From Robinsoniella peoriensis (GTDB lineage Bacteria; Bacillota; Clostridia; Lachnospirales; Lachnospiraceae): a stretch of 64,000 nt of DNA. A program made the position numbers and the translations under genes. Below are positions 1,925-56,318 of this stretch, piece after piece. The notes under the pieces are model-generated. The model ran no database searches. It was not told the origin of the DNA and worked only from the letters and a program-made list of their open reading frames with translations. The stretch is from contig NZ_JTGN01000008.1 of the NCBI RefSeq assembly GCF_000797495.1, forward strand, positions 186,001 to 250,000. The letters are read 5' to 3'. Numbering within the stretch: position 1 is the stretch's first letter; each line of letters begins with the position of its first letter.

Positions 1925-1938
1925 AAGGAGGAAGAATT

Positions 1939-4469: not shown

Positions 4470-4586
4470 CGGGAACAAATCACACAAAAGTGTGTTTTGG
4501 ATACATATGTAAAAAGTTTTAAGGACCGGGTGCATTAATTCCATGGAGTGGTTCGGGAGCTTTTCATATCAAAAAGGAGGATAATC

Positions 4587-5741: not shown

Positions 5742-6815
5742 ATGACAAACAGAGAGAACTTCCTGTCGCTGATCAGGCGGCAGGGATATGAATGGATTCC
5801 GGTAGAATTTGTACTTTCTCCGCATCAGCAGCAGGTTTGCAAAGAACAGCTTGGTGCAGATGATTATGAGGAATATTTCAAATTTCCATGGCGCAGGGTA
5901 GAAGATCTGCGCCTGCGCAACCATGACACAGAAAAATATCGTGTATATTATCAGACACCGCTTGCAGAGGGTGCGGATATCGACATCTGGGGTGTTGGGC
6001 ATGAGAAATCGCCAAACAGTATGCATATGACCTATATGCGTAATCCACTGGAAAACATGGAAACCCTGGAGGAGATAGAGAATTATCCATATCCGGATTT
6101 TGCGAAGGCAGATGGATCCCACCAGGCGGAGCAGGTTGAAAAAATAAAAGCAAGAGATCTCATTGCGATAGGTGACATGCAGATGACAATATGGGAATGC
6201 GCCTGGTATATGAGAAGTATGGAAGAGCTGTTCTGTGATATGATGGAGGAAAATGAAATAGCTGAATTTCTATTTGATAAGGCGGCAGAGCAGTCCACAA
6301 TAAGGGCTGCTGCCTATGCAAAAGCCGGGGTGGATGTATTGTTTATTGGTGATGATATCGGTATGCAGTATACGCTTATGATGAGTGAAGAGCTTTACTG
6401 CAGATGGATTAAGCCAAGACTGGCGGCACTGATTCGTACAGTAAAAGAAATTAACCCTGAAATCGTAATTTTTTATCACTCATGTGGATTTATCGAGCCC
6501 CTGATACCCCATTTAATAGAAGCAGGGGTAGAAGTTCTGAACCCTATTCAGAGTGAATGCATGGATTTTGAAGAAATCCATAAAAAGTATGGTCAGCAGA
6601 TTTCATTTCACGGTACAATCGGCACACAGACTGTTATGCCTTCCGGCACCCCTCGGGAAGTGAAGGAAGCAGTCTGGAACAATCTGGATATTGCAGGGGA
6701 AAAAGGCGGACTCTTTGTGGCACCGACCCATATGCTGGAACCAGAGGTTCCACTGGAAAATATTCTGGCTTATGTGGAGGCGTGCAGAACTTATAGAAAA
6801 AAAGGCGGGAATTAA
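5742..6815 (+). CDS. URO-D superfamily protein (methyltransferase-like, MtaA/CmuA type), unknown substrate
   Basis: The 357-residue cytoplasmic protein has the uroporphyrinogen-decarboxylase TIM-barrel fold, but its neighbours are sugar genes, not heme genes. His246 and Cys248 in 'FYHSCGFIEPLIPHLIEAG' match the H-x-C zinc-site motif of MtaA/CmuA-like methyltransferases. The end also follows that pattern ('ISFHGTIGTQTVMPSGTP', 'APTHMLEPEVPLENI'). True HemE enzymes have an N-terminal RxxGRxxPExR-type motif, which is not seen here. No corrinoid-binding protein is encoded nearby. It lies between the importer and the GH2 gene, so it may act on an imported (perhaps methylated) sugar or glycoside. 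That role is inference. Start ATG 5742 follows AAGGAG. Confidence 0.85.
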   Translation: MTNRENFLSLIRRQGYEWIPVEFVLSPHQQQVCKEQLGADDYEEYFKFPWRRVEDLRLRNHDTEKYRVYYQTPLAEGADIDIWGVGHEKSPNSMHMTYMRNPLENMETLEEIENYPYPDFAKADGSHQAEQVEKIKARDLIAIGDMQMTIWECAWYMRSMEELFCDMMEENEIAEFLFDKAAEQSTIRAAAYAKAGVDVLFIGDDIGMQYTLMMSEELYCRWIKPRLAALIRTVKEINPEIVIFYHSCGFIEPLIPHLIEAGVEVLNPIQSECMDFEEIHKKYGQQISFHGTIGTQTVMPSGTPREVKEAVWNNLDIAGEKGGLFVAPTHMLEPEVPLENILAYVEACRTYRKKGGN

Positions 6816-43200: not shown

Positions 43201-43637
43201 CGAAAAAGGGTGATACCCTGAGCAGCGGAAGACTGAAATATACAATCACAGGCACGGTATCAGGAAAACGTACCGTAAAAGTAACAGTTCCTGTGAAAAA
43301 AACGTATAGCAGTATAACAATTCCAAATACAGTAAGGTTCAAAGGGAACACTTACAAAGTTACGGAAATTGGTTCCAAAGCATTTCAGAAAAACAGAAGG
43401 CTTAAGAGCGTTAAAGTAGGAAAATATGTAAAAACAATAGGCTCTTACGCATTTGACGGTGCAGGTAAGCTGAAGAGCATCCGTATTTATTCAGCTTCTT
43501 TAAAAACTGCAGGAAAGAATGCATTTAAAGGAATCAACAGCAGGGCTGAGATTAAAGTGCCATCAAAGAAATTTACAGAATATAAAAAACTTTTGGCTAA
43601 AAAAGGTCAGAAGAGCAGTGTGAAAATCAAAAAATAA
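37257..43637 (+). CDS. Giant secreted multidomain glycosidase with GH95-like (alpha/alpha)6 catalytic domain
   Basis: A 2126-residue protein with a signal peptide (about 1-31). The catalytic region (about 60-800) resembles GH95 and related (alpha/alpha)6-barrel enzymes: 'LMGNGTVLGFLSG', 'LAPDWTGDYTLNSDVQRPMG', 'DMGGTLFSGAIMECLMQSHEG'. Then come a Big_2 domain (808-881), an F5/8C module (888-1044), Big_2, FIVAR, Big_2, a second F5/8C (1281-1431), three Big_4-like domains (1438-1698) and FIVAR. A Cys-rich segment (1768-1851), InlB-type repeats (1851-1980) and a basic BspA-like tail (1981-2126) complete it. GH95 members are mostly alpha-fucosidases or alpha-galactosidases; the substrate is not determined. 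The ATG follows AGGAGG. Confidence 0.8.
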   Translation: MKKVKRYFAGAMALCMAVSGLSAVPANYARAAETEEVYSAEPQWEEVSALLDSHVGVYTKPSIIEPKTGHTPDGPLMGNGTVLGFLSGTTRDDKKNQTVYLTRLDNFEELTNGNRDSQYVGFGGLDIKRTDDEGIYGTYSMTEDMKLAEVSGSSESGYNTTTWISAKENLMITEITNHTDKIMDLDISAWTATPPSNNGGFSSVESAIDKEKGIITATRHAVSNTYNIKVHATLAAKILGKTPTIEKVSNNTSKLSVSVEPNETIQVVSAVEGGKESTTYYEDAIKKVEQYDSADKIADARERHHQWWKEYWLKSYIKLDDKSNSLEKAYFGQIYQIGCALQAVSEHPAEGVTTGLFPWSGSLAPDWTGDYTLNSDVQRPMGTAITANRLNHIDNYSEVIDAYWKTGVEKASDPRHLNSVINNSSRTKFTEGIRGSLFPTHIGPWGIRTESFNGGVQDYWCSPSNATMALQPMITYYKSTLDEDYLNNVLWPKLSSTADFWVDYAEKEGDQYNIYGATYESTTALKNATLDIAGAAYILKHAIEISESKGINADDRVQWNEVYTHLAPYPTKTIDGKEYYTVDAEGGNHEPTFSSFNVYGFAFYDLIGPSSSQEERDKVLTWLDKKQEFGTSDKQTRAAMTAARVGYDPEKWLNAMKAGYVDVKSNDTGVYDWMGIRPNNTIGDMGGTLFSGAIMECLMQSHEGFINFFPTWYQSQSASFKNLRAYGAFTVSGEQNAFGQTTHASIYSEKGTDCSVLNPWQAEGLELKVFADGKEVETIKEANSLGDVYSFATEAGMRYELTYTGELPSVINIEETSVDVPLNNSVKINVISNSDKKIIWESDNNEVVPVDAYGTVTGKQEGSATITATLEGTNIKDTCIVNVISERKIPSSQLTAVADSEQNSGADGPAGNAVDGNESTRWHSAYNHDPRPDISNDINNSFTIDLGDIYDVGKFEYVPRQEENAFNGRILGYELWYSTNAEGEDFVKIPGGSGTWENTMYKKEALFESVEARRIRIRAKDTTAGNPNEVNKFICAAEFYVYEKFLPIPEVPAEEVVISAEKLSLYENASNTLTAAVLPQDASFPDVKWKSSDNTVAAVEGGVVTGVKTGTAIITAVSWDKQASAICEITVSADPELVEQLQNLCNEYDQVKKGVYTSESWNVFQTTLEKAKVTLENPSRVQSEIDALKSAFEQLKEIDGIEIDQQEVKIEVGSAEQLSVRQNVDGEIQWRSSNNEIVNVSKEGKVLALGSGTATITAMVKGTEYQDSCIIKAEGGGSGNLAVMANRVTADSQHDNFAPLRVIDGKTNGTKDDGAEFAWVSASKNIAEPRWVQLDFDEAIIINKWKVSHVALRGDINSVAKDFKLQVSENGTDNWQDVDSVTGNKEKVTERTLSEPVTSKYFRLYITVADNYNGQWPKNNARIDELELIAADAPEVKLTDVKAAEDLKLYFRTTVEELEEQLPKTAEVTLGEDFVTEYPVTWNTDGYKPEEEGTYTLEGNIAVPAAVKNPENKKAGIKVIVEKHVIRSVEYLPDMEAELNTPIEELNIPQTLVAVMDDDSTQEVSITWNKEIYDGAVAGTYELVGTIAENSTYKNPYKVKAKLNIFVNEVPNITEIGLQAEKEVSFGTSADDAAAGLPAEVLVRLNHVDVRYLPVTWACEGYDGTVAGVYGFTGTIPEGTEYQNRNNLKAQVNVVVMEEGVPTSEELAELRQSILDAESIDAGKYSEESYAKVKEALAAAKAVAENPAADAGEIKEAVDAVKESIRNLACGHLETETVILHESTCDQEGVLITRCNICKEIINQEIIPAAGHDFGEWERVKNPTIYEEGEETRSCKACDKTEESPIAKLPSCKVMFLNHDNRVLGEMQTIEVNGTAKAPQVPERKGYRFTGWDKAFTNVTGDLVISAKYELLTYRINYAGMSGVNNANPAVYTTVQTIILGTPVKAGMNFGGWYLNGTRVTEIPAGRTGEITLTAKWSEVPAKKGDTLSSGRLKYTITGTVSGKRTVKVTVPVKKTYSSITIPNTVRFKGNTYKVTEIGSKAFQKNRRLKSVKVGKYVKTIGSYAFDGAGKLKSIRIYSASLKTAGKNAFKGINSRAEIKVPSKKFTEYKKLLAKKGQKSSVKIKK

Positions 43638-43642
43638 TGAGA

Positions 43643-43683
43643 AGACTCTCGGAAATCTAAATAATTTCCGAGAGGACTTTTTA
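43643..43683 (+). terminator. Rho-independent terminator after the GH95-like gene
   Basis: CTCTCGGAAAT pairs with ATTTCCGAGAG around CTAAATA and is followed by GACTTTTTA. Confidence 0.85.
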
Positions 43684-43708
43684 TATTACTGAAAGGATTG
43701 GATTATAT

Positions 43709-44084
43709 ATGAAAATACGAATGAAAGAAACATTTGAAACAGGGTGGAAATTCCATCTGGGTGATTGGAAAATCATACATCCCGTGAAGAGCGGTATGGC
43801 AGGTGGTATTACAGACTGCGAGGATATTGAGGATTGAGAATGGCTGAAAATCCTGTATCCGGATTTCTGTAACAGACAAATATAAAGGTGCAGCAAAGAT
43901 AATAGGTACAGGAAATGGAGATCCAAGCAGCCATGAACCGGATAAAGCAATGGAAAAAAGTATGTTTTCAGGAAAATGTATGCTGATTATTCAGTCCAAT
44001 GGAGAAGAGGGAGAGATTCTGGTAACTGCTTCTTCGAAAGGATTGAAGGATTGTATTATTACGTTAGCAGGGAAAGCTATATAG
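43709..44084 (+). pseudogene. GH2 beta-galactosidase remnant with its whole middle deleted
   Basis: ATG 43709 with GAAAGGA upstream opens a frame reading 'FETGWKFHLGDWK', 'VKSGMAGGITDC' and, after an in-frame TGA, 'EWLKI'. This is the N-terminus of a cytoplasmic GH2 enzyme. A few bases later a different frame continues with 'IIGTGNGDPSSHEPDKA' and 'GEILVTASSKGLKDC' to TAG 44082-44084. That is the C-terminal DUF4982-type end of the same kind of enzyme. Roughly 800-900 codons that should lie between are missing, with the junction near 43865. The gene is therefore dead through an internal deletion plus a nonsense codon. Confidence 0.85.
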
Positions 44085-44133
44085 TAAATTTAGTATTGAA
44101 AAAATTGAGTTATAAATAGCAAGAGATCCAGAT

Positions 44134-44168
44134 GAAAAGGGATTGTCGCTTTGCGGCAGTCCCTTTCC
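44134..44168 (+). terminator. Rho-independent terminator after the GH2 remnant
   Basis: AAAGGGATTGTCGC pairs with GCGGCAGTCCCTTT around a three-base loop. It probably served the deleted gene. The 270 bases from here to the next gene hold no recognisable gene; they contain a TATGAT -10-like box at 44344-44349. Confidence 0.7.
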
Positions 44169-44439
44169 GTGGTCTCTTAATGAATTTTCACCTGAAAATC
44201 TAAACTATCAAAAGAACTCCATGCTTGATGTCCTCAAATACAATTTGGTTTCCGAAGACCGCTGATGGAGAAGTCCGGTGGACGGGAGCAGCGTAATGTA
44301 AAGGAGTGCGATATGTAAATTATTATGTGATATATACTAAAATTATGATAAAATAAATCTAATCTGAAAGCATAATCGAAAGCAGATAATAAAACTTTAT
44401 ATCTAGCGGGTCGAAATTAGGTGTTGGAGGTATGAGAAT

Positions 44440-46263
44440 TTGGAAAATAAGTTAAAATCCTATTGGGAGAGGCTGGGTATACGGAATAGACTGCTGCTGA
44501 TGTTCAGTGCGCTGGTCATAATTTCCGTAAGTTTGTGCGCGGCGGTTTTATCCATATACTGGTCCAGAGAGCGGATCAGCAGTTTCGACACATACGCTGA
44601 TGAAATTACAAAGCAGGTAAGCAAGTCGGTGGATGCCTGTCTGCAGAATATAGACAGGCTGGCAATCTCAATTGCATACAGCGATAATATACAGCAGGTA
44701 TTAAGCGTGAATTACAGACAGCACTTTGAAATGTATGCTTCCAATGAAAAATTAGCCGGCTGGTATCTGGCTAACGCTCAAAATTCTTATAATGGTATTC
44801 AGTCAATATATGTCTATGATCTTCAGGGACATTTGTTTTCCACACCAATGAATTTTATTAATTCTGACTATAGAATTCAGCAGGAGGAATGGCTTCCGGA
44901 ATATGCGAGGTCTGATGCCCGGACATGTATTATCGGGCCATATGTCAACCAGCAGGAGACTTATCCCAGAGAAGAGGTTATCTCCATAGTCCGTAAAGTG
45001 AAGAATATGATGACGATGAAAGATGCGGGATATGTTCTCATTAATGTCAAAATTGAGGATATCCTGAATAATAATTTACAGAAAATCTGGGAAGCGGATG
45101 GAGGAACGCTGCTTATTGTCACAGATACAAATCATATTGTATTCGATTCAGGAAAGCTTTTCGGGGGAGAAAATGCCATGGATGTAGGATGGTTTGCCAA
45201 ATTAGAGAAGAGTGACAACCATTTTGATTATAAGTATCAGGGCAGTAAGAACCGGGTGATTTTTTCACAATGTGAAAACAGTGGATGGTTTGTATTGCGT
45301 ATTGCAGAGCATCAGCAGTTGTACTCCAGTGTACACAAGATGCTGATTTTTTCAGCTGTAATAGCAGGTTTAATTATAGTTGTTATTTTTTTGCCGATGA
45401 TGGCATTTGCAAATGGTTTTGTATGGCCTATTATCAGGCTCCAGAAAAGTATGCTGCGTCTGACGAATGATAACTTTGATCCTTTTACAGAGCCGGAAGA
45501 TGAAAATGATATTATTCTGCAGTCCGATGGCGGCAATGAAATTGCTCTGCTCACGGAGAGTTTTAACCATATGGCATTAAGGTTATATTCAATGATTCAA
45601 ACAATTTACCAGACAGAGGATGAGAAGCATAAATTGGAAATTGCAGCTTTGTCGGCTCAGATCAATCCCCATTTTACATACAACACGCTCAGTACAATTA
45701 AACAGATGGCACTTTTGCAAAATGCCGGGGGGATCGCTGATCTGACAGACGCAATTACCAGTTTGCTGCGTGCAACTGCAAGATATAGTGATGGAGGCAG
45801 TACTCTGCAAAAGGAACTGGATTTGATCCGCGATTATATTTTCATTATGCAGATGCGGTATTATGAAAACTTTAAATGCAGCATTGCAGCGGAAGATGGG
45901 ACACTGGAACAGCCAATGCCCTGTATGCTGCTTCAGCCGATTGTAGAAAATGCCATATTTCATGGTATCTATGGTATAGACCGCCAGGGCATCATTGATA
46001 TTCATGCGCGCATTGAGGATGGAAAATTTTGCATTGCCGTGGCTGACAATGGGAAGGGCATCAATCCCGAACAGATGAAGGTATTTCTGGAAGGGCCTGG
46101 GAGGTCGGAAAACAAGTATGAAAACGTAGGTGTCTACAATGTACACAGAAGGCTTCAGCTGCATTATGGGAAAGAATATGGGCTGAAATTCGGACAGAAT
46201 CACCCATATGGGACTACTGTAACGATATTGATTCCATTGAAGGAGGAAAAAATACATGTATAA
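44440..46263 (+). CDS. YesM-type sensor histidine kinase
   Basis: The 607-residue kinase has membrane helices at about 18-38 and 300-322 enclosing a Cache-like extracellular sensor, then a HAMP domain. The His-kinase motif 'SAQINPHFTYNTLSTIKQMA' (His about 412) and a HATPase domain follow ('LQPIVENAIFHGIYG', 'VADNGKGINPEQM'). The start is a TTG: GGAGGT lies eight bases before it, and the nearby ATG (44432) is out of frame. It overlaps its regulator gene by eight bases. Unlike the kinase at 30-32 kb it is intact. It is expected to sense an extracellular sugar and control the importer, URO-D and GHL6 genes downstream. Confidence 0.93.
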   Translation: MENKLKSYWERLGIRNRLLLMFSALVIISVSLCAAVLSIYWSRERISSFDTYADEITKQVSKSVDACLQNIDRLAISIAYSDNIQQVLSVNYRQHFEMYASNEKLAGWYLANAQNSYNGIQSIYVYDLQGHLFSTPMNFINSDYRIQQEEWLPEYARSDARTCIIGPYVNQQETYPREEVISIVRKVKNMMTMKDAGYVLINVKIEDILNNNLQKIWEADGGTLLIVTDTNHIVFDSGKLFGGENAMDVGWFAKLEKSDNHFDYKYQGSKNRVIFSQCENSGWFVLRIAEHQQLYSSVHKMLIFSAVIAGLIIVVIFLPMMAFANGFVWPIIRLQKSMLRLTNDNFDPFTEPEDENDIILQSDGGNEIALLTESFNHMALRLYSMIQTIYQTEDEKHKLEIAALSAQINPHFTYNTLSTIKQMALLQNAGGIADLTDAITSLLRATARYSDGGSTLQKELDLIRDYIFIMQMRYYENFKCSIAAEDGTLEQPMPCMLLQPIVENAIFHGIYGIDRQGIIDIHARIEDGKFCIAVADNGKGINPEQMKVFLEGPGRSENKYENVGVYNVHRRLQLHYGKEYGLKFGQNHPYGTTVTILIPLKEEKIHV

Positions 46264-47830
46264 GGTGATCATTGCAGATGATGAACCTCTATTGAGGTTT
46301 GCGGTGCGCAATCTGCTGAGATGGGAAGATTATGGCTTTGTTGTTGAAGGAGAAGCGGGAGATGGGCTTGAAGTATTGAAAATGGTACAGGAAATTAATC
46401 CCGATCTCATTTTTACAGATATCCGTATGCCTAACATGGATGGTCTGGAGATGGTAAAACTGCTGCATGAGGAAAGTGCAGCATCTGTTGTGATTCTGAG
46501 CAATTATGATGATTTTAATTATGCGCAGGCAGCCCTTCGTTTGGGGGTAGATGATTATGTGCTCAAGTCTGCTTTGGATGAGGAGCATTTGGAGCGGATT
46601 TTGGAAAAGGTACGAAGAAAACTTGAGGCATATCAGCAGCAAAATCCACCGCAGGAGAATTTGGAGAGAAAGACAAATAATATGACAACAATACTCAAAG
46701 AGATGATTCAACGAAAAGGGGTGACGGATATTATTGCAGAGGCAGAACCGCAGCTGCTTTCTCTGCTAAATGGGATGTATTATGTGATATTTGTAACGGA
46801 TTCAGAAGCTGACTACCTGCATCGCATCTATGAGTCAGCAGAAAACTCTCCCATTTCTATGTTTAATAATTTCATAGAGAATATAGTGAGAGACAGGCTC
46901 CATAACCGGGGGTGCTATTTCTTTATTAAGGATGCAGGATGTGTTGTCGTGTTATCCCGTCTGGACTTTGATGAATTGGATGGAAAAGGTCTTTTGCATA
47001 GTATAACGAATTTACTTGAGCGATATACGAACCGGATATACCTGGCGGGAATCAGCCGCTTCGGACAGGGTACAGAACAGTTTTATACATTGTATAAAGA
47101 GAGTGTTTTTGCAGCTGACCGCTATTTTTTTGATCAGACCAAACGGGTGATTTCTTATGACGCGGTCAATGCACCGTCATCGGATCATATGCGCACTCTG
47201 TTGGAGCGGATTTTCGAACAGGCAGGCGAAATGTCCTGGGTCTCCGGCATACCGCTGACAATTTTGGAAATGTTGGATGAACTAAAAGATACACAACTCT
47301 TGTCTGCCAACTGCAAAACAATTCTCAGTAACGTTCTGTTGCTCTATGGAATGAAATTGACGGGTGACCATAATGAATTTATGAATTTAAATGAACGCTT
47401 TGCAGAGAAAGTGCAGTATGCCGGTACTTATTCAGTTATGAGGCAGGAAGTAGAATCCCTTCTGGACTGCATGGGAACCTGTGTAAATGAAATGGGTAAG
47501 TATTCTTTGCCAGTTCTCCAGACAATTCAATGGATTAAGGACAATTACAGAGAACGCATTACACTGGTGCTGGCCGCGGAACAGATGGCAGTACATCCCA
47601 ATCATCTGAGCCGTATTTTTTCGCAGCAGACAGGGAATTCCTTCAGCGCATACCTCAATGATTACCGAATGGAGAGAGCAAAAGCACTGCTTTTGGACAG
47701 AGCACTTTCTGTCCAGGAAATAGGTGAAAAGGTGGGAATACCAAACGGAAAATACTTCGGAGATGCATTCAAAAAGTGGTGCGGTATGTCACCAAGGGAG
47801 TACCGCCAGATGGTTTTGAAGCAGAAATAG
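46256..47830 (+). CDS. AraC-type response regulator (YesN family)
   Basis: The 524-residue regulator has an N-terminal receiver ('VIIADDEPLLRFAVR', phospho-Asp in 'DLIFTDIRMPNMDGLE') and a central helical region. The C-terminal AraC-type DNA-binding domain (about 425-520) contains 'LAAEQMAVHPNHLSRIFSQQTG' and 'VQEIGEKVGIPNGKYFGDAF'. The residue at the usual conserved Lys position is within 'DYVLKSALDEEHL', so the receiver looks functional. It overlaps the kinase gene and follows AAGGAGG. The binding-protein gene starts 174 bases downstream, behind a TATAAT at 47948-47953. Confidence 0.94.
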   Translation: MYKVIIADDEPLLRFAVRNLLRWEDYGFVVEGEAGDGLEVLKMVQEINPDLIFTDIRMPNMDGLEMVKLLHEESAASVVILSNYDDFNYAQAALRLGVDDYVLKSALDEEHLERILEKVRRKLEAYQQQNPPQENLERKTNNMTTILKEMIQRKGVTDIIAEAEPQLLSLLNGMYYVIFVTDSEADYLHRIYESAENSPISMFNNFIENIVRDRLHNRGCYFFIKDAGCVVVLSRLDFDELDGKGLLHSITNLLERYTNRIYLAGISRFGQGTEQFYTLYKESVFAADRYFFDQTKRVISYDAVNAPSSDHMRTLLERIFEQAGEMSWVSGIPLTILEMLDELKDTQLLSANCKTILSNVLLLYGMKLTGDHNEFMNLNERFAEKVQYAGTYSVMRQEVESLLDCMGTCVNEMGKYSLPVLQTIQWIKDNYRERITLVLAAEQMAVHPNHLSRIFSQQTGNSFSAYLNDYRMERAKALLLDRALSVQEIGEKVGIPNGKYFGDAFKKWCGMSPREYRQMVLKQK

Positions 47831-48004
47831 TTAAAAAAACAGGAAAAAAAGCTATCATAACAGAAATTAAAAATTACGGCTGAAAAGATGATACAGAATA
47901 GGGAGTATACGTTATCAAAAAAGGTTCCAAGTTACCGAAATATTATGTATAATCCAAACTACAATATACTTCATAAATAAAGAAATGGAAACGGGGGATT
48001 AGGA

Positions 48005-49306
48005 ATGAAAAGGATGAAGAGTATCCTGGCAGTTGGTTTGGCAGTGGTAACGATGGGAGCAACGGCGGCTTGTGGGAATGCAGACAGTGAGAAACCCAAG
48101 GAAAAATCCAGTGTTAAACCCAAAATTGTTTTTTGGGATATGGTTTGGGGCAACGAGGAATCCATTACCATTGCCGAGGAGATGTGTGCCAGATACAGCG
48201 AGGAAAATGATGTTGAAGTAGTTTATCAGAGTGTGCCATGGGATAACTTTTACCAGACGTTTCTCACCGCAATTGCGGCAGGCGAGGCACCGGACTGCAG
48301 CAGTGGTTCCAGTTATATGCCGATGCAGTTCTATGATATGGACGCCATCTATCCGCTGGATGATCTGATTGCTAAAATGTATGAAGACGGCGAGATTGAG
48401 GATTACGCTTTGGAGGATTTGGTGCAGGGATACAAGTACAAGGACCACTATGTTGCTCTGCCATGGGGAATTGACATGCAGGTTGCATACTGCCGTACAG
48501 ATATTCTGGAGGAGCATGGGCTGTCTGTTCCAACCAACTGGGAAGAATTTCGTCACTGTCTGGAAGTTCTGGCAGAGCCCAAGAACAATAAGTATGGTAT
48601 GGTTCTGACCGGAAACGGGAATAACGGAAAGACCATGTTCCAATGGACAATCAATAATGGCGGCGGCCTTTTCAACGAGGCTGGTGAGCCGGATTGTGTC
48701 ACTGACCGCAATATTGAAGCTGTTGATTATCTGTTGGGTCTTATCAATGATGGACTGGTGAACCCTGCCAGTGCAGGTCTGACTTCCGATGATTCAAAGT
48801 CCGCTTTTGCAAAGGGTGAAGCTGCATTCCACTGGGGGAATCCGGGACTGGTATCCCAGCTTCCGGAACTGGCTGATAAAATTGCAGTGCTCCCACCTCT
48901 CGAAGGACCTCATGGGGACAAGGGTGCAGTTTACTGGAATGCGGGACTAATGGCTTATTCTCAAAGCGAGTATCCGGAGGAAACCTGCGACTTTATGCGT
49001 TGGTTTGTTGCAAATATGACGTCCTATTGCGTGGACGGCAAATTCTCCATGTTCCCGGCACGTAACACAGTTTTGTCCGATCCGGCTTATGCCGAGGATC
49101 CGGTGGTTCAGGACATCGTTGACGAATATCTGCCTGTTATGAAGACTATTGCGGCAAATGGCACGGAGATGTTCAGTGAACTGAGCGCAGTTGAGTCTGA
49201 TGGCACACTGGATGCAGTTATTCAGAGTATGTTTACTCCGGGTGCAACGGCGGAACAGATTCTGAAAAAGGAACAGGAAAATCTGGAAATGATTCTTGGT
49301 AAGTAA
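48005..49306 (+). CDS. Extracellular solute-binding lipoprotein, family 1 (second CUT1 importer)
   Basis: A 433-residue precursor with lipobox TAAC before Gly-Asn and a type II binding fold. Recognisable parts are 'IVFWDMVWGNEES', 'FYQTFLTAIAAGEAPD', 'YVALPWGIDMQVAYCRTD' and 'AFAKGEAAFHWGNPG'. It delivers an oligosaccharide or glycoside to the two permeases downstream. The long charged tether of the other two binding proteins in the window is almost absent. ATG 48005 follows GGGGGATTAGGA. A hairpin follows the gene. Confidence 0.93.
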   Translation: MKRMKSILAVGLAVVTMGATAACGNADSEKPKEKSSVKPKIVFWDMVWGNEESITIAEEMCARYSEENDVEVVYQSVPWDNFYQTFLTAIAAGEAPDCSSGSSYMPMQFYDMDAIYPLDDLIAKMYEDGEIEDYALEDLVQGYKYKDHYVALPWGIDMQVAYCRTDILEEHGLSVPTNWEEFRHCLEVLAEPKNNKYGMVLTGNGNNGKTMFQWTINNGGGLFNEAGEPDCVTDRNIEAVDYLLGLINDGLVNPASAGLTSDDSKSAFAKGEAAFHWGNPGLVSQLPELADKIAVLPPLEGPHGDKGAVYWNAGLMAYSQSEYPEETCDFMRWFVANMTSYCVDGKFSMFPARNTVLSDPAYAEDPVVQDIVDEYLPVMKTIAANGTEMFSELSAVESDGTLDAVIQSMFTPGATAEQILKKEQENLEMILGK

Positions 49307-49336
49307 ATCCCGATGACTTATTTTCGATGACTTATA

Positions 49337-49361
49337 TGACGGGAACAATACGTTCCCGTCA
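49337..49361 (+). terminator. Attenuator-like hairpin between binding-protein and permease genes
   Basis: TGACGGGAAC pairs perfectly with GTTCCCGTCA around AATAC. There is no T-run, so RNA stabilisation of the upstream message is more likely than full termination. A 10-base direct repeat GATGACTTAT lies just before it. Confidence 0.55.
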
Positions 49362-49383
49362 CCTCATAGATAGGAGGTTCAAT

Positions 49384-50268
49384 GTGAAAGAGCAACGAAG
49401 CTTGGAGAGAAGAAAAAGAGATTATATGTTGTCCATGGGGTTTTTGTTACCCTCTGTCATACTGATCGGCTTCGTAAATCTCTATCCGGTAATCACCGGT
49501 ATCCTCTACAGTTTGAAAGACGGAAATATTGTAAACACCGGAGACTTTGTCGGACTTCAAAATTATCAGTCAGTGCTTACCAGTTCCAGGTTCTGGAACG
49601 CAATGGGGTTCTCCCTTCTGTTTTCACTTGTTACCATTATAGGAAGTTATGTGATTGGTCTTACCCTTGCACTGATTCTTAACAAAGATGTGCCCGGCCG
49701 TGGATTTTTCCGTGCAGCATTTATTATACCCTGGGTTATACCGACGATCGTTTCTGTTTCAGCGTGGAGATGGCTGATAAATGATCAGGGCAGTCTGATT
49801 AACGTATTGCTCGGTTATCTGAATATTGAGCCGATTATGTTCCTTGCTGATCCGGTATGGGCGCGTGTTACGGTGTGCATAATTAAGATCTGGATCAGTT
49901 ATCCCTTTGTACTCATATCTCTGCTGGCTTCCCTGCAGAGTATTGGTACGGAAATGTATGAATCTGCCCGTCTGGATACTTCCAGCGGAGCAAAGCTGTT
50001 CCGATATATTACCTTGCCGCATTTAAAGCCCACTTCGATCATTCTCGTTATACTATTAACAGTCTGGTCATTTAATGATTTTGGTCTGATTTATCTCCTG
50101 ACGGGAGGCGGACCTGACATGGCAACAGAGAATATGGTATATCTGGCATATCTGTATCCGTTTACTTACAACAAGATAGGACCTGGTTCGGCTATTGCCG
50201 TTATAACGTTAATTTTGCTTATGATTCTGGCATATATAATGATGAAAATGCGCCGGAATGAAGAATAG
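49384..50268 (+). CDS. CUT1 sugar ABC transporter permease (MalF/UgpA type)
   Basis: The 294-residue membrane protein has six helices and the EAA loop 'EMYESARLDTSSGAKLFRYI'. Near the end it has 'DFGLIYLLTGGGPDMATENM'. A GTG at 49384 is taken as start because AGGAGG lies six bases upstream. The ATG overlapping it is out of frame, and the longer in-frame option lies across the hairpin. It is 12 bases upstream of the second permease. Confidence 0.93.
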   Translation: MKEQRSLERRKRDYMLSMGFLLPSVILIGFVNLYPVITGILYSLKDGNIVNTGDFVGLQNYQSVLTSSRFWNAMGFSLLFSLVTIIGSYVIGLTLALILNKDVPGRGFFRAAFIIPWVIPTIVSVSAWRWLINDQGSLINVLLGYLNIEPIMFLADPVWARVTVCIIKIWISYPFVLISLLASLQSIGTEMYESARLDTSSGAKLFRYITLPHLKPTSIILVILLTVWSFNDFGLIYLLTGGGPDMATENMVYLAYLYPFTYNKIGPGSAIAVITLILLMILAYIMMKMRRNEE

Positions 50269-50280
50269 GAGGTAGATAAC

Positions 50281-51108
50281 ATGAGAACAAAAACCCAAAT
50301 CAGGAGATGGGTGCTGTTTGCTGTATTATGTGCTGCATTTGTCGTTGCGTATCTGCCTATATTCACAATCGTTGCCAACAGCTTCCGCAGCGAGGCAGAA
50401 ATCTTGGCAAAAGGTTTTTTGGATTCTGTTTATACGCTTGATACATATAAGAAACTTCTGTCCAATTCTGAGTTTGTGGGATATCTGAAAAACAGTCTGC
50501 TTGTTTCGATGGCTAGTGCACTAGCTAATATTTGTATTTCAACCTTTGCAGGTTATGCAATTTCGCGTTTCAAAAACAGACTGGTTAAAGGCTACTCAAG
50601 CCTGCTGCTGCTTTTACAGATGTTTCCGCTGATTCTGTGTGCAGTGCCACTGTTCATCGTTTTCCGTTCTGTGAATCTGATGAACTCTTATACGAGCATC
50701 ATTATATTATATACGGCAACTTCGCTGCCTTTCACCACATGGATGTTCAGAGGGTATTTTGATGAAATACCTCAAGAGATTGAGCAGGCAGCATGGATCG
50801 ATGGCTGCGGTCGTTTCAAATCTTTTCTGAAAGTAGTACTGCCGCTGTCAGGACCTGGTATGGCATCTGTTTCCATTTATTGTTTCCTGCAGGGCTGGAA
50901 TGAGTTTTTTCTGGCTAACATTTTCCTGATGGACAATGCCAAACGTACGCTTCCGGTAGGTATTTCCATGTTTATTAATCAGTATAGCCGCGATTATGGT
51001 CGTCTTTCCTGTGCGGCAGTACTGGCAATGATTCCTACATTTATATTCTTCCTGGTGGGGCAGAAGTATATTGTCGGCGGCGCAATTTCAGGATCAGTCA
51101 AAGGATGA
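50281..51108 (+). CDS. CUT1 sugar ABC transporter permease (MalG/UgpE type)
   Basis: The 275-residue partner permease has six helices and the EAA loop 'EIEQAAWIDGCGRFKSFLKVV'. The C-terminal 'QKYIVGGAISGSVKG' is typical of the family. The ATG follows AGGAGGT. As with the other CUT1 system in this window, no dedicated ATPase gene is present. Confidence 0.94.
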   Translation: MRTKTQIRRWVLFAVLCAAFVVAYLPIFTIVANSFRSEAEILAKGFLDSVYTLDTYKKLLSNSEFVGYLKNSLLVSMASALANICISTFAGYAISRFKNRLVKGYSSLLLLLQMFPLILCAVPLFIVFRSVNLMNSYTSIIILYTATSLPFTTWMFRGYFDEIPQEIEQAAWIDGCGRFKSFLKVVLPLSGPGMASVSIYCFLQGWNEFFLANIFLMDNAKRTLPVGISMFINQYSRDYGRLSCAAVLAMIPTFIFFLVGQKYIVGGAISGSVKG

Positions 51109-51165
51109 TGTGCGTCAAATCATTCTTGAAAAGATTCAAAAAATTATAATATGGAGGAAAAACAA

Positions 51166-52215
51166 ATGAATTCAAAAGAACGTGTCAGGGCAGCCGTAAA
51201 ATATGGCAATCCCGATAGAATTCCTGCAGCATTCGAGGCAGTACCGCCTGTAACATCCCGCCTATTGAAAGAGTACGGTTTTTCCAGCGTGGATCAGATT
51301 TATGATAAGTTTCAAATTGATATTGCCTGCATCCATTCGCGATATATCGGTCCAACGCTTAAAGAGACCCGGAATGCAAAAGGGGATACAGTGAGGGAAA
51401 CCTACTGGAACTATGAAGAGACAATGTATACCACTAATGTGGATACTTATTTTACCACCACCCGTTACCCGCTGCAGAACTGCAAGACGATTGAAGATGT
51501 AGATAAGATGGGGTGGCCGGATCCGGACTGGTTTGATTATGAGCATATCAGGCGCCGGTGCGAACACTATAAGGATAAAGCTATCATTTTTGGTCACGAG
51601 GGTCCTTTTCAGATTGTCACCTTCCTGCTTAGTATGGAGGATTTTTTCGTACTGATGATCGAGGAGCCGGATGTGGCAAAACACATTTTAAAGCGTATGA
51701 TGGATTTTGAACTGGAGTACTATGAACGTACATTGATTGCCGCAGACGGCCAGATTGATTTTATCCGTCCTCATGACGACTATGGTACGCAGATCAGTCT
51801 GTTGTTCTCTATGGATATGTGGAGAGAATTTTTTAAAATAAATACGAAGAAGCTGGTAAATCTGGCTCATAAGTACGGAGCATTTTATCAGCAGCATTCT
51901 TGCGGAGCTATTGCACCCCTGATCCCGGAATTGATTGACTGCGGCGTTGATGTTCTCGAACCGCTTCAGAAGGTTCCAGGTCTTTATCCGGAAGACCTGC
52001 AATCCCACAGGGGAAAGATCTGTTTCCATGGAGGTATTGACACGCAGAATCTCATGCCCCATGGGACACCCGGACAGGTAGCTGCCGAGGCCCGGTATTA
52101 TATGGAGAATTTAGGAAAGGGCGGTGGATATATTCTCATGTCCAGTCAGGGGCTGGAGCCGGATGTACCAACGGAAAATATAGAGGCCCTTTTTACTGTC
52201 AGCAGAGAGTTTTAA
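51166..52215 (+). CDS. URO-D superfamily protein (methyltransferase-like), second copy
   Basis: A 349-residue cytoplasmic URO-D-fold protein, clearly divergent from the one at 5.7 kb but with the same key parts. His244 and Cys246 lie in 'QQHSCGAIAPLIPELIDCGVD', the H-x-C metal-site motif of MtaA/CmuA-like methyltransferases. 'CFHGGIDTQNLMPHGTPG' and 'SSQGLEPDVPTENI' occupy the positions seen in the first copy. The N-terminal 'NSKERVRAAVKYGNPDRIP' is usual for the MtaA-like branch. ATG 51166 follows GGAGGA. It sits between a sugar importer and a putative glycosidase gene with no heme or corrinoid genes near, so a sugar-linked role is inferred. Confidence 0.87.
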   Translation: MNSKERVRAAVKYGNPDRIPAAFEAVPPVTSRLLKEYGFSSVDQIYDKFQIDIACIHSRYIGPTLKETRNAKGDTVRETYWNYEETMYTTNVDTYFTTTRYPLQNCKTIEDVDKMGWPDPDWFDYEHIRRRCEHYKDKAIIFGHEGPFQIVTFLLSMEDFFVLMIEEPDVAKHILKRMMDFELEYYERTLIAADGQIDFIRPHDDYGTQISLLFSMDMWREFFKINTKKLVNLAHKYGAFYQQHSCGAIAPLIPELIDCGVDVLEPLQKVPGLYPEDLQSHRGKICFHGGIDTQNLMPHGTPGQVAAEARYYMENLGKGGGYILMSSQGLEPDVPTENIEALFTVSREF

Positions 52216-52268
52216 TCCGGCAAGTGGTGTTTTGATAAAAAGAAGATATGGAAGGAGAAATAAAAAGT

Positions 52269-54335
52269 ATGTGGATTAAAGGTAATTACAGGCGCATGTT
52301 TCTGGATATGCATATAGCAGATGATAAGCCCGAATATTTAAGCAGGCTGGATCCTGAAAAACTGGTTGCAATGTTAAATAATGCAGGAGCACAGCAAATC
52401 GTGGTCAAATGTCGTACACACACAGGACTGGCACATTATCCCACCAAGATCGGATTGATGCATAAAGGCCTTCATGGACGGGATTACGTGAAAGAAATGA
52501 TTGAGCTGTGCCACAAAAATGGCATTGCCGTAAAAGCTTATTTTTCTCAGAATTTTGATAATTATGCTTATGATATCCATCCTGAATGGCGTATGGTTAA
52601 CGGCTTGGGGCTGACTTCACGTGAGGAGGAAAAGTATACAGCTGAAAGTATGTTCCGTAAAGGACGTTACGGCATCGTCTGTCCGAACAACGAGGAATAC
52701 CGTCAGTTCGTGCATGACTGCCTTACAGAAATTACCTGGAATTATGAATTTGAGAGTATTTTTCTGGATATGCCATTCTGGCCGGAAGTATGTTTCTGCC
52801 CAAGCTGCCGCAAGAAATATAAAGAGTCATCCGGTAAGGATGACCTGCCGCGTATAGTGGACTGGTCCGATCCGGAGTTCCGTGAATATCAGTATCTGCG
52901 TGAAAAATGGATGGCTGAGTTCTGTGCCCTTAGTACTAAAGCGGTCAAGGATGTGAGGCCTGAGGTTACAATAGAGCACAATATGTGTGTAAATACGTCA
53001 CCCTGGAGGCACGGCACCAGCGATTTGGTAGGAGAGGAGTGCGATTACATTGGAGGTGACCTGTACGGTGGTATCCTTGAAGAAAGCTTTATTTGTAAAT
53101 ATTTTCGTAATCTGACGAAAGAACTGCCTTTTGTATATATCACATCCCGCTGTGATCCGGGTCTGCAGAGCCATACTACAACTAAGACGATGGAGGAGTT
53201 CCTGCTTCATGCCATGACAGCGCTGGTGCATGACGGAGCACTGTCAATTTGTGACGGAGCAAACCCTGATGGGACTCTGTCAGATGAAGTATATGCAGTG
53301 GGTGGTCCGGTCCAAAGAGCCTGGTCAATCTCAAAGAACTATGAAAAATATGTAGGCGGCAGGCTGAATACGAATGCAACGATCTGGTTCCCGACCCACT
53401 CCAAGTATGACTGGTCAGAAAATGGTGATAACGTTTGTGTGGAAGAGGATTATAAAGAGCCTGATAAGAGGTTTATCTATGATAAGCTTGATGTATGCAA
53501 GATCCTGCGCACAGAGAACATCCCCTTTGATGTAATCCCCAGCAGGAGACTTGATGTAATCCCGAACAATCTGCTTATTATTTCGGAAGTGGTGAATATT
53601 CGTGATGAGGAGATGGAAAAGATCGAGAAGTTTGTCAGGGAAGGCGGAAATATTTATCTGTCCGGACACTTTGGACATCCGCGCCTGCCGGAGCTCCTTG
53701 ACATAAAGCACCTCGGTCAGACTGACCATAATGTGACCTATATGAGCTGCACACCTGCCGGCCAAGATCTGTTTCAGGGCTTTACGAAGCAAAGTCCTAT
53801 GGCGGTTCAGGACAGACAGGAACTTATGGAAGTGACAGGCGATGCGCAGGTATTGGCAACCATTACGCTCCCCTACACGATGACAGGAAGACGTGAATTT
53901 TCTTCCATCCATTCTGATCCTCCTGGTGTGAAGACGGATTATCCGGCCATGATCCTCAAGAACGTTGGAAAAGGTAAAATTCTGTACGCAGCCGCACCCA
54001 TTGAGCGCAGCAGGCCGCTTATGAGCAGACGAGCATTTGCACGCATCATACGCAGATTAATGGGAACGCCGGTGTTCACATCTGATGCACCGGGTTTTGT
54101 AGAAGTGATAAACTGGGAGCAGAACAACGGTAAAAGTTACTTTACTGTTCTTAATCAGCAGGAAGAGGCCCCATATATAACGATAAAGGACATCACGGTT
54201 ACAGTCCCTTATCAGATCAAAAGCGCCCATCTGGTTGAGACAAACGAGGCTCTGAAAGTGGAGTGTAACGGCAGCAGTTCGGTTATTTCTCTGCCAAAAC
54301 TTGAAGTATTCCTAATGTTTGAGGTGGAAAAGTAA
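52269..54335 (+). CDS. GHL6-type putative glycoside hydrolase with trimerisation-like domain
   Basis: The 688-residue protein has no signal peptide and should be cytoplasmic. The N-terminal half (about 1-370) resembles the 'hypothetical glycosyl hydrolase 6' TIM barrel: 'RRMFLDMHIADD', 'VKCRTHTGLAHYPTKIG', 'ELCHKNGIAVKAYFSQNFDN', 'SIFLDMPFWPEVCFCPSC'. The second half (about 400-620) looks like the GATase-like trimerisation domain of GH42-type enzymes ('NNLLIISEVVNIRDEEM', 'FVREGGNIYLSGHFG'). An alpha-fucosidase-like or beta-galactosidase-like activity on imported glycosides is possible, but no activity can be read from sequence. ATG 52269 follows AAGGAGA; it is last in the operon. Confidence 0.75.
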   Translation: MWIKGNYRRMFLDMHIADDKPEYLSRLDPEKLVAMLNNAGAQQIVVKCRTHTGLAHYPTKIGLMHKGLHGRDYVKEMIELCHKNGIAVKAYFSQNFDNYAYDIHPEWRMVNGLGLTSREEEKYTAESMFRKGRYGIVCPNNEEYRQFVHDCLTEITWNYEFESIFLDMPFWPEVCFCPSCRKKYKESSGKDDLPRIVDWSDPEFREYQYLREKWMAEFCALSTKAVKDVRPEVTIEHNMCVNTSPWRHGTSDLVGEECDYIGGDLYGGILEESFICKYFRNLTKELPFVYITSRCDPGLQSHTTTKTMEEFLLHAMTALVHDGALSICDGANPDGTLSDEVYAVGGPVQRAWSISKNYEKYVGGRLNTNATIWFPTHSKYDWSENGDNVCVEEDYKEPDKRFIYDKLDVCKILRTENIPFDVIPSRRLDVIPNNLLIISEVVNIRDEEMEKIEKFVREGGNIYLSGHFGHPRLPELLDIKHLGQTDHNVTYMSCTPAGQDLFQGFTKQSPMAVQDRQELMEVTGDAQVLATITLPYTMTGRREFSSIHSDPPGVKTDYPAMILKNVGKGKILYAAAPIERSRPLMSRRAFARIIRRLMGTPVFTSDAPGFVEVINWEQNNGKSYFTVLNQQEEAPYITIKDITVTVPYQIKSAHLVETNEALKVECNGSSSVISLPKLEVFLMFEVEK

Positions 54336-54370
54336 ATCACTGGTTATAGCGGTATAGTACATCAAATGCT

Positions 54371-54404
54371 AGCGGTATAGCATACCCAATACTATATCGC
54401 TTTT
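54371..54404 (+). terminator. Rho-independent terminator after the GHL6 gene
   Basis: AGCGGTATAG pairs with CTATATCGCT (one G-T pair) and is followed by TTTTC. A second AGCGGTATAG occurs 26 bases earlier. The 5' end of the decayed group II intron lies only seven bases further on. Confidence 0.7.
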
Positions 54405-54410
54405 CATAGT

Positions 54411-55440
54411 GTGCCAGGCATGGCATTAATCTAGCTGGTGCAAGTCCGGTCACGGGTATTTACCGCCAAGTGTAGCGAACCACAAGTTGGTATCAGTAAT
54501 GGTATAGATGAAGGAAGTGGTGTAGCAAAGTTCCCCGCCTACGAACAGAAACTTGATCAGGCGATTAGGTGGGTTAGGTTGCTATACAAACCGAAGCCCC
54601 AAAGGTAAACGTAAAACCGAAGTTGTAAATCAAGAGGTTGTGAAACGAAAGATTAGTGTCTTACCCTCGGGAGACCCTACCCACATATCGCAGGATATGG
54701 TCGAAAAAGGTTCAGGGAGGGAGTCAGATGAAGTCATAGTAGGCATAAAGCCGAAGGACTGAAACGATTTATAGTACAAATCGTTATTAAGAGAATGATG
54801 CATAAGCCAGAAATCAGATGGATAGGAAAAATAGGAACGTAACCGAGAAATACTATTTATATCGGGAGGGGCGATGTGTATAAATTTTGTAATAATCAGA
54901 GGAGTAACAACAATGGAATTAATTGACGTGATTGCATCAAAGGAAAATCTGAATAAGTATTATAAGAAAGTAGTGGCAAATAAAGGGGCAGGCGGGATAG
55001 ATGGAATGGAAGTGGAAGAACATGGTGCCTATATCAGGGAAAACAGAGACCTTTAGGCATACCGATAGTCCTGGACAGAGTAATCCAGCAAGCCATAGCC
55101 CAACCAATCATAGAAATTTATGAAGAAATATTCAATGAGTACAGTTATGGATTCAGACCTGGAAGAAGCTGCCACGATGCAATAAAACAGGCAAAACCAG
55201 AAATATAAAAATGGATTTGATGACCATGAGGCAATCTACAAGGTCGCAAACTCAAGGGTCGGCTGGTACAGAAGAAGTGGAATGAATGTAGTGAACTATA
55301 TCATCAGTCCGGAGTTGCTTGAAAATAAAATAAAGGACTGAGCAGGGTTGCTCAATCCTTTATTTTACTATCTAAGAAAAGTTGGAATATAAGTTGTAGA
55401 GCCGTATACGAGAACCGTACGTATGGGTCAACGGGAGGAA
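54411..55440 (+). mobile_element. Degenerate group II intron
   Basis: The 5' end GTGCCAGGCATGGC matches the GUGYG-type intron start, and a domain V-like hairpin (GAGCCGTATACGAG...CGTACGTATGG) lies at about 55399-55428. Between them are about 500 bases of intron RNA and a maturase gene with several lesions. The 3' end is unclear. It differs from the intron at 35.3 kb in both RNA and protein, so it is not a copy of it. It begins just after a terminator, a site preference known for some bacterial introns (class C). Confidence 0.8.
54913..55392 (+). pseudogene. Fragmented group II intron maturase
   Basis: Three coding pieces remain. The N-terminal one reads 'VVANKGAGGIDGMEVEEHGA'. A reverse-transcriptase piece in another frame has 'PLGIPIVLDRVIQQAIAQ' and 'EYSYGFRPGRSCHDA'. 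A C-terminal piece has 'YKVANSRVGWYRRSGMN', interrupted by TGA and then 'LLNPLFYYLRKVGI'. The catalytic YADD part is deleted. The intron can no longer make its own protein. Confidence 0.85.
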
Positions 55441-55463
55441 AATAATGCTTGCCATTATTTCTC
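55441..55463 (-). terminator. Terminator of the alpha/beta hydrolase gene
   Basis: On the minus strand AAATAATG pairs with CATTATTT around GCAAG and is followed by TTCC. The stem overlaps the stop codon of the hydrolase. Confidence 0.55.
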
Positions 55464-56318
55464 TACCCTATTCGCTTGTTCATTATATTTCTTCTGTTCC
55501 GCAAAATAATGTTTCACGGCATACAAATATTGTCTTTCAAATTCCACAATGGCTTTTTTGCTCACTTTTTTGAATGGGAGAAGCATATCGAATGCATGAA
55601 AACAATTCGGGTAGACATCAGTCTTTGCCTTCACACCGGCGTTCTTCAGGTTTTTGATATAAGTAAGCGTTTCACAGTAAAACGGATCATTATCACCTAC
55701 AAAGGTATATGCAGGTGGCAAATCTGAATAATTGGTTTGCCTTGCAGGAGCAGCGTATGCAGGAACATTCCCTTGCCACAAATCACCCAGATATGCTTTC
55801 CAACCTTTATGATTGAGCTTTGTATTCCAAACAGGAGCGTGGTTATCACGAGAAGATTCAGTATCTCTGTCATCAATCATGGGATAAAGAGGCATCTGAT
55901 ATGCAATATTTATTTCACCCTTATCTCTGGCATACATACAGGTTGCAACTGTCAAACCGCCACCGGCGCTTTCACCGCCAATCATAATCTGACTGGTATT
56001 TATGCCTAATTCCTTCGCGTGTTCTTTTAAATATTTTAATGCTGTATAGCAATCTTCCAAGGCGGCAGGATAGGGAGCTGCTTTGGAGAGACGATATTCC
56101 GGAGTCACAACGACAGCACCGTATTTTTTCACAAGTCCTATTGCCCGAGAGATATAGAGCATCTTTGCCATTCCCGTAATATATCCGCCACCATGTATCC
56201 ATAAAATTCCCGGAGTTTTATTCTTTGGCTTCACATTTACAGTAGGTTTCAGAATATATAGATCCATTTCTTTTTCGCCAGACAGAATCTGGATTTTTTT
56301 CATTGTATATTTTTTCAT
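55455..56318 (-). CDS. Alpha/beta hydrolase, HSL-type esterase (acetyl esterase-like)
   Basis: The 287-residue cytoplasmic protein shows the hormone-sensitive-lipase-type oxyanion motif 'GILWIHGGGYITG' and the nucleophile elbow 'IGGESAGGGL' (Ser near 115). The likely acid and base are in 'FVGDNDPFYCE' and 'NCFHAFDM'. Such enzymes cleave short acyl esters, for example acetyl groups on sugars or xenobiotics. AAAGG precedes the ATG. A MITE-like repeat ends about 20 bases upstream of the start and may supply or disturb its promoter. It is transcribed alone. Confidence 0.9.
   Translation of the reverse strand: MKKYTMKKIQILSGEKEMDLYILKPTVNVKPKNKTPGILWIHGGGYITGMAKMLYISRAIGLVKKYGAVVVTPEYRLSKAAPYPAALEDCYTALKYLKEHAKELGINTSQIMIGGESAGGGLTVATCMYARDKGEINIAYQMPLYPMIDDRDTESSRDNHAPVWNTKLNHKGWKAYLGDLWQGNVPAYAAPARQTNYSDLPPAYTFVGDNDPFYCETLTYIKNLKNAGVKAKTDVYPNCFHAFDMLLPFKKVSKKAIVEFERQYLYAVKHYFAEQKKYNEQANRVEK

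Follow-up and report, generated by a model that had tools for sequence, protein, structure and literature searches.

Known substrate-specific corrinoid methyltransferases (MT1 enzymes) act together with a corrinoid protein. The closest described counterparts to the system considered here are those of MtvB, OdmB, VdmB, MtoB and CdmB, which comprise a corrinoid protein, a methyltransferase MT2 and an activase. Passages of PMC13222342 place O-demethylases and haloalkane dehalogenases in the uroporphyrinogen decarboxylase (UroD, here URO-D) superfamily, and according to passages of PMC10418091 the S-methyltransferases of that superfamily have a His-Cys-Cys site, whereas its O-methyltransferases have one or both cysteines replaced. 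Here we analysed a 64,000-nucleotide stretch of the Robinsoniella peoriensis genome (assembly GCF_000797495.1, contig NZ_JTGN01000008.1, positions 186,001 to 250,000 of the forward strand; hereafter the window, with coordinates counted from its first letter), in which a URO-D-superfamily gene (51166-52215, + strand; hereafter the window copy) lies between the genes of a CUT1 importer and a putative GHL6 hydrolase. We lean towards the reading that many O-demethylases of this kind, often importer-linked, share one corrinoid protein as a hub, although both the MT1 chemistry and the sharing are what we infer from gene content and co-occurrence. The resemblance to the MtvB/OdmB-type systems lies in superfamily, fold and a His plus Cys/Asp site, in a corrinoid protein and a RACo reactivator encoded in the genome, and in the folate methyltransferase found alongside in relatives. 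Unlike in those systems, the candidate MT1 genes here stand in sugar-importer runs without a corrinoid protein of their own, there are many of them per corrinoid protein, acetyl-CoA synthase is absent from 35 of 40 such genomes, and the substrate is probably non-aromatic.

The window copy matches the URO-D family PF01208 at 76.7 bits (cut-off 23.9), carries an HSCG motif and has MtaA as its nearest solved relative. Its open frame begins at 51151, and 51166 is the likelier start because a GGAGG at 51153-51157 lies 8 bases ahead of the ATG. The searches below used an alignment, A1, of 29 URO-Ds from this genome, with the window copy first, which comprises 23 members found in same-strand runs with importers (including U3 and U35) plus U5, U10, U17, U19, U25 and U37 (U-numbers denote URO-Ds of this genome, C-numbers its contigs, with the window on C13, G-numbers the compared genomes and L-numbers extracted loci). 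The best solved relative of the A1 profile was MtaA (4ay7; E 2.3e-17), followed by HemE (E 2.1e-12); CdmB matched weakly (E 1.7e-5), and was not among the 50 matches listed in the solved-relative comparisons. In a structure comparison of the predicted window copy (pLDDT 91.8), MtaA (Z 28.5) and HemE (Z about 28) were tied for nearest, and thus sequence and predicted fold both place the protein in the URO-D superfamily.

Membership of the better-known subfamilies was rejected. HemE shares the PF01208 family and fold, but the window copy gave no match to the curated hemE model TIGR01464 at E 0.001, and a second URO-D in the window (U12, 5742-6815) scored 22.4 bits against a cut-off of 302.95; neither copy is therefore an ordinary HemE by this model. 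An ordinary HemE in one of them would, according to the preliminary description of this DNA, have been fatal to its proposal. The MtaA/CmuA model TIGR01463 gave 73.3 and 77.6 bits for the two copies, far below its cut-off of 235.4, and the window copy also differs from MtaA, a methylcobalamin:coenzyme M methyltransferase, in lacking the last zinc cysteine. The type 1 mlp gene clusters of Kountz and Balskus likewise hold bacterial MtaA relatives outside methanogenesis, but passages of PMC10418091 give them several Mlps, a corrinoid protein, RACE and a His-Cys-Cys site, unlike the window locus, which has one URO-D on a contig without a corrinoid protein or RACo match. In alignment to MtaA, its zinc-binding His and first Cys (or Asp) are retained, and the last Cys is changed to His, Asn, Gln or another residue. 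Of the 28 importer-run URO-Ds, 27 have an H-x-[CD] motif and none has the last Cys, whose position is taken by His in 15 of the 27 that were tabulated; among all 48 URO-Ds of the genome only U0, U1 and U2 retain that Cys. The window copy, with HSCG and a Gln at the last-Cys position, has a predicted metal site of the O-type (His plus Cys/Asp, no last Cys), and best fits a substrate-specific corrinoid methyltransferase, presumably an O-demethylase.

The linkage of such genes to sugar importers extends throughout the genome, which comprises 7.39 Mb in 32 contigs, is scored 98.3% complete and holds 48 URO-D matches above the Pfam cut-off alongside 141 SBP_bac_1 (CUT1) and 52 BPD_transp_2 (CUT2) matches. 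A same-strand importer permease was found within three genes of 24 of the 48 URO-Ds, compared to 10 of 157 random genes (Fisher p 9e-11), and within five genes of 32 of the 48, compared to 7 of 103. The random genes came from 20 random 20-kb stretches (157 of 344 open reading frames (ORFs) were usable), a control that is conservative because four of the 20 regions themselves contain URO-Ds. Similar results were obtained when URO-D positions were rotated within contigs 5000 times. A same-strand CUT1 binding protein lay within 6 kb of 23 of the 48 URO-Ds against a rotation mean of 9.6, and a CUT1 or CUT2 gene within 6 kb of 29 against 11.5, values that no rotation reached. At 4 kb the excess for CUT1 alone was weak (12 versus 6.5, 163 of 5000 rotations), and for CUT2 the count of eight of 48 compared with means of 1.5 at 4 kb (0 of 5000) and 2.2 at 6 kb (24 of 5000). 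Chance placement of the URO-Ds beside importers was thus ruled out by both tests. Seen from the importers, a URO-D lies within 6 kb of only 16 of the 141 CUT1 and nine of the 52 CUT2 genes, so the link involves a subset of them.

By strict same-strand runs, 26 of the 48 URO-Ds are joined with an importer (18 with CUT1, eight with CUT2). The importer-run set of 28 adds U3 and U35 by hand, as an opposite 104-aa ORF separates them from their permeases; tree labels and the motif table cover 27 of these, with U46 missing from the table and mislabelled "other" in the tree. The importer link changes several times on the URO-D tree, parts of which are unsure owing to several long branches, and a single origin of the link was rejected as the CUT1 label requires five changes, at least four of them forced by supported branches. 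These results bear out, in this genome, the claim of the preliminary description that a general and poorly described association of URO-Ds with importers and varied partners exists, including when genes within three places of importers were counted against random expectation, as it had proposed. Its view of the URO-D as the end point of an unnamed reaction fared less well, since the evidence favours a methyltransferase of a corrinoid system whose other parts are encoded elsewhere.

With regard to those other parts, the same genome encodes seven B12-binding_2 proteins (six small and one of MetH size) and two RACo proteins; one small corrinoid protein is paired with RACo on contig C18. The comparison covered 196 genomes of the class (completeness of at least 90 requested), in which the best candidates of an A1 search, up to 10 per genome, were scored. 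A match at E 1e-20 or better was present in 62 genomes. All 62 encode a PF02607 protein, compared to 97 of the other 134. The contrast was far stronger for a small corrinoid protein (<300 aa), found in 58 of the 62 genomes and nine of the 134 (p 6e-35), where lengths for the 97 came from two listings of 56 and 41 and proteins of 342, 393 and 426 aa were counted as not small. Within the 21 families holding both kinds of genome it persisted (31 of 35 versus 4 of 59; Mantel-Haenszel p 3e-12, omitting 17 of the 134 genomes that lack a family label). Among the 40 strongest genomes (E 1e-60 or better) all but G172 have a small corrinoid protein, and 19 strong genomes have both a small and a MetH-size one. 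RACo was found in 34 of 36 strong genomes (absent from G172 and G182; G055, G079, G101 and G159 were not in the test) and in eight of 38 others, taken in listing order from the PF02607 genomes, a contrast somewhat favourable to our reading because the 38 did not include G013, G036 and G053, each with a small corrinoid protein. Therefore, presence and absence of the corrinoid machinery follow those of these URO-Ds, and we regard it as highly probable that they are corrinoid methyltransferases. An acetyl-CoA synthase match was present in five of the 40 strong genomes, including that of R. peoriensis (C23:144744). The second RACo of this organism lies about 6 kb from that match (C23:138546-145205), so it may be an acetogen, although 35 of the 40 strong genomes have no such match.

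If the URO-Ds are corrinoid methyltransferases, it is likely that their hub is shared. Exactly one small corrinoid protein was found in 38 of 56 genomes, a count that omits the six corrinoid-rich genomes G055, G079, G142, G159, G176 and G193. Sixteen of those 38 have at least nine URO-Ds, and five of the sixteen have at least 27, which is a lower bound as the best 27 candidates per genome were counted in the 62 genomes. The likely hub in R. peoriensis is the C18:17717 protein. In 15 of 16 loci from other genomes the hub protein shares 51-63% identity with it (the 16th locus is L114), whereas the five other small corrinoid proteins of R. peoriensis reach at most about 40%. Genes were taken from simple ORF calls, which missed the corrinoid protein in L114 (G182) and L173 (G025), and in L173 the URO-D also. 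On C18 (L122) the hub consists of a divergent PocR-AraC gene, the corrinoid protein and RACo; its counterpart in G031 has a PocR-AraC regulator, a folate methyltransferase (Pterin_bind), the corrinoid protein, a methionine-synthase-activation-domain-like protein and RACo.

A corrinoid protein in the same locus as the URO-D is absent at the window and present in some relatives. A1-type URO-Ds beside hub-family corrinoid proteins score 263-380 bits; the two genes are same-strand neighbours in G159 and G079, are separated by an AraC gene on the same strand in G008, and are opposite-strand neighbours in G116 and G024. In G191, a stretch of about 15 kb holds a corrinoid protein, an AraC-type regulator, DUF1638, RACo, PfkB, a URO-D and a CUT2 binding protein, with CobW-, CobT- and LacI-like genes by eye. 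One strand of G159 carries, in order, DeoR, a URO-D (HSCG), the corrinoid protein, a folate methyltransferase and a glycerol-kinase-like FGGY protein, with gaps of 299, 22, 85 and 238 bases, and its URO-D aligns end to end with the window copy (27% identity, E 3e-36). Other genes recur near hubs. A DUF1638 protein was seen near hub corrinoid protein and RACo at L171:10095-10841 by Pfam, and in L124, L168 and L169 by similar N-termini. A distinct URO-D type of 451-482 aa, with F-V-C and PGC motifs and a CobW-like GTPase adjoining or near (own C18:41184-42170; L031:7822-9177), is about 43% conserved in three other genomes (L114, L124, L137); in G005 and G182 it is found close to the hub. The R. 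peoriensis copy has, by eye, lipoate-ligase-like and lipoyl-like proteins next to it. This type, with its CobW partner, may be an outlet methyltransferase.

The neighbourhoods of the URO-Ds in R. peoriensis are mostly sugar-catabolic, as indicated by a Pfam scan of 40 nearby proteins, one of which was itself a URO-D and three of which had no family. The hydrolases include GH36, GH38, GH141-insertion, GH3, GH2, GH52, GH106 and raffinose-synthase-like proteins, with a marginal GH127 match and a sulfatase; the kinases are FGGY, ROK and PfkB, with Dak1/Dak2 in addition. Class II aldolase, transketolase, a fucose/arabinose-isomerase C-terminal domain, Gfo/Idh/MocA and alcohol dehydrogenases are also represented, as are DUF4432, DUF2284, ADP-ribosylglycohydrolase, DUF4185 and a glycyl radical enzyme with its activase. 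GH141, GH106 and GH127 are known from the breakdown of rhamnogalacturonan II, a glycan with 2-O-methyl-fucose and 2-O-methyl-xylose, which we take as a lead only. The glycyl radical enzyme and activase adjoin U19 together with a GH38 mannosidase and a ROK kinase (C30:101803-110882, L052), and homologues of the GH38 protein, radical enzyme and activase of that locus lie near the G182 hub (L114). Five tandem URO-D pairs were seen (L035, L036, L044, L061 and L064), namely U16/U26, U3/U35, U30/U15, U38/U33 and U37 with a 379-aa neighbour. In addition, a 356-aa protein behind U4 (L032:7140-8207) has no Pfam match but matches the URO-D cluster profile, therefore 48 may undercount the family. U39 lies downstream of phosphotransferase-system (PTS)-like and creatininase-like genes (by eye; C24:236249-242265, L065), and so the importer link may extend beyond ABC importers.

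The window copy itself is part of a run of seven genes on the + strand (44440-54335) with gaps of at most 175 bases, those around the URO-D being 33-58 bases; the next called gene past 54335 is on the opposite strand, 1120 bases away. The run begins with a YesM-type sensor histidine kinase (44440-46263; dCache_1, His_kinase, HATPase_c) and a YesN-type response regulator with an AraC domain (46256-47830; Response_reg, HTH_18), followed by a CUT1 binding protein with a lipoprotein-like N-terminus by eye (48005-49306; SBP_bac_1, 113.9 bits) and two CUT1 permeases (49327-50268 and 50281-51108; both BPD_transp_1). The operon has no ATPase gene, for which there is precedent in the single MsmX-like ATPase that serves many importers. 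Behind the URO-D lies the hydrolase gene (52248-54335), whose product, a putative hydrolase, belongs to GHL6 by the curated Pfam cut-off (PF14871, 76.8 bits, cut-off 35); it also matches Alpha_L_fucos (40.6 bits, cut-off 25.2) and the alpha-L-fucosidase structure 6tvk (E 6.7e-13), and no signal peptide was seen by eye. A scan of 43600-55500 gave 25 promoter sites versus 27.8 in shuffled sequence, which is no excess, and 16 terminator-like sites versus 8.1; no individual site was used.

The preliminary description had placed this URO-D between a CUT1 importer and GHL6 under a YesM/YesN pair, an anatomy that Pfam bears out, and had set it beside a first locus with unrelated partners. That locus, also on the + strand, consists of a single AraC regulator (998-1924; HTH_18, AraC_binding), a CUT2 importer with ATPase, permease and binding protein (1906-5714; ABC_tran twice, BPD_transp_2, Peripla_BP_4), the URO-D U12 (PF01208, 86.2 bits) and a large GH2-family protein (6879-13229; Glyco_hydro_2_C, 109.6 bits). 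The two loci do differ in regulator, importer and hydrolase, as had been claimed, and the URO-Ds are indeed clearly divergent, with 31% identity across 262 columns and positions in separate supported clades of the 48-row tree; the HSCG motif is present in each.

These observations suggest a pathway in which the two-component pair would sense a glycoside, the CUT1 importer would take it in and the GHL6 hydrolase would probably cleave it inside the cell. The window copy, as an MT1, would transfer an O-methyl group from the sugar or glycoside taken up to Co(I) in a corrinoid protein whose gene lies elsewhere in the genome, most plausibly the C18:17717 protein with its RACo reactivator and PocR-type regulator. 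RACo would reactivate the shared corrinoid protein, a folate methyltransferase would pass the methyl group to tetrahydrofolate and the freed sugar would enter ordinary catabolism. Granted a corrinoid MT1 and a shared hub, we think it probable that the methyl donor is a sugar. The pathway as a whole, an anaerobic route for O-methylated sugars in which dozens of demethylases, many tied to importers, discharge onto one RACo-maintained corrinoid protein in Clostridia that mostly lack acetyl-CoA synthase, is put forward tentatively, at somewhat under an even chance.

Several observations weigh against this reading. Contig C13 has no B12-binding_2 match and no RACo match, and a B12-binding_2 protein lies within 2 kb of just two of the 48 URO-Ds (U21 and U45), both of another type. 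Small corrinoid proteins are absent from four of the 62 A1 genomes (G001, G117, G172 and G189); G172 is an unexplained exception, having five URO-Ds and neither a small corrinoid protein nor RACo, and in G182, which does encode a corrinoid protein, RACo gave no match. Some of the 62 genomes may be counted because other corrinoid methyltransferases match A1 weakly, which would inflate the number, and the small corrinoid proteins may instead function in a split methionine synthase. The flat relation between URO-D and corrinoid numbers (rho 0.25, p 0.065) is predicted by a hub but also by unrelated systems. The loci joining URO-D to corrinoid protein were picked for close coordinates and are examples, not a rate, and of the 38 URO-Ds in 20 stretches of other hub genomes, chosen around A1 matches, only 15 stand in an importer run. 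The importer-run U46 carries HQHG, and the assembly is scored 6.44% contaminated. Furthermore, in nine relative loci (from Blautia, Candidatus Limivivens, Lachnospiraceae bacterium CE91-St56, Eisenbergiella tayi, Epulopiscium and unclassified Clostridia; two of the nine contigs are <9 kb and give a short view), each with a relative (52-66% identical), neither an importer within the run nor a protein clustering with GHL6 is present; an AraC regulator adjoins the URO-D in seven of the nine. The trio of importer, URO-D and GHL6 is thus not a conserved unit, but young or local. All nine relatives are nearer to the stand-alone paralogue U17 than to the window copy, which therefore looks like a duplicate recruited behind an importer.

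A reading that does without corrinoid takes the URO-Ds as Zn-dependent sugar-modifying enzymes and their co-occurrence with corrinoid proteins as a matter of lifestyle, for example a split methionine synthase. It would account for the 46 of 48 URO-Ds without a nearby corrinoid protein, for corrinoid proteins being far fewer than importer-linked URO-Ds, for G172, and for the methionine-synthase-activation-domain-like protein in the G031 hub. We consider it rather unlikely, as the co-occurrence persists within families, small and MetH-size corrinoid proteins stand together in 19 strong genomes, and A1-type URO-Ds adjoin hub-family corrinoid proteins in several genomes. The view of the protein as an ordinary HemE, or of its gene as a stray one between importer and hydrolase, has the Pfam name and the absence of the window trio from the nine relatives on its side, but is already contradicted by the lack of a hemE match, the genome-wide importer linkage and the 33-58-base spacing, and deserves next to no credence.

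Alternatively, the corrinoid MT1 chemistry may be the same and the donor the aglycone of a plant glycoside taken up by the cell, a methoxylated aromatic as for MtvB/OdmB-type enzymes, with importer and hydrolase merely delivering it. The characterised UroD-superfamily O-demethylases in passages of PMC13222342 and PMC8630106 use methoxyaromatics, and adjoining importers and hydrolases are equally compatible with such glycosides. However, other spokes of the proposed hub adjoin sugar kinase, isomerase-like, aldolase, transketolase and Gfo/Idh/MocA genes, an FGGY (G159) or PfkB (G191) kinase lies beside the URO-D, and no aromatic-pathway gene was recognised, though none was searched for; an aromatic donor is therefore distinctly unlikely in our estimation. 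The words "carbohydrate" and "sugar" do not occur in the main text of PMC10418091, sugar importers go unmentioned in passages of PMC10418091, PMC8630106, PMC13222342 and PMC9888536, and a full-text search found no paper on importer-linked URO-Ds or corrinoid sugar demethylation, although subscription journals lay mostly outside its scope and absence is thus unproven.

Our analyses reveal dozens of relatives of vitamin-B12-dependent demethylases in one gut-type bacterium, with sugar importers beside about half of them, and indicate that proteins annotated as uroporphyrinogen decarboxylase in sugar operons are mis-named and have been left unexplained. If the favoured reading of O-demethylases sharing one corrinoid hub is true, it would give a function to a large group of proteins, with 48 in R. 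peoriensis and at least 27 in some other genomes, and would demonstrate corrinoid-based methyl transfer in genomes that lack acetyl-CoA synthase (35 of 40). In addition, the loss of one corrinoid gene would abolish the use of many methylated glycans together, so that a single protein would control access to an entire class of methylated glycans.

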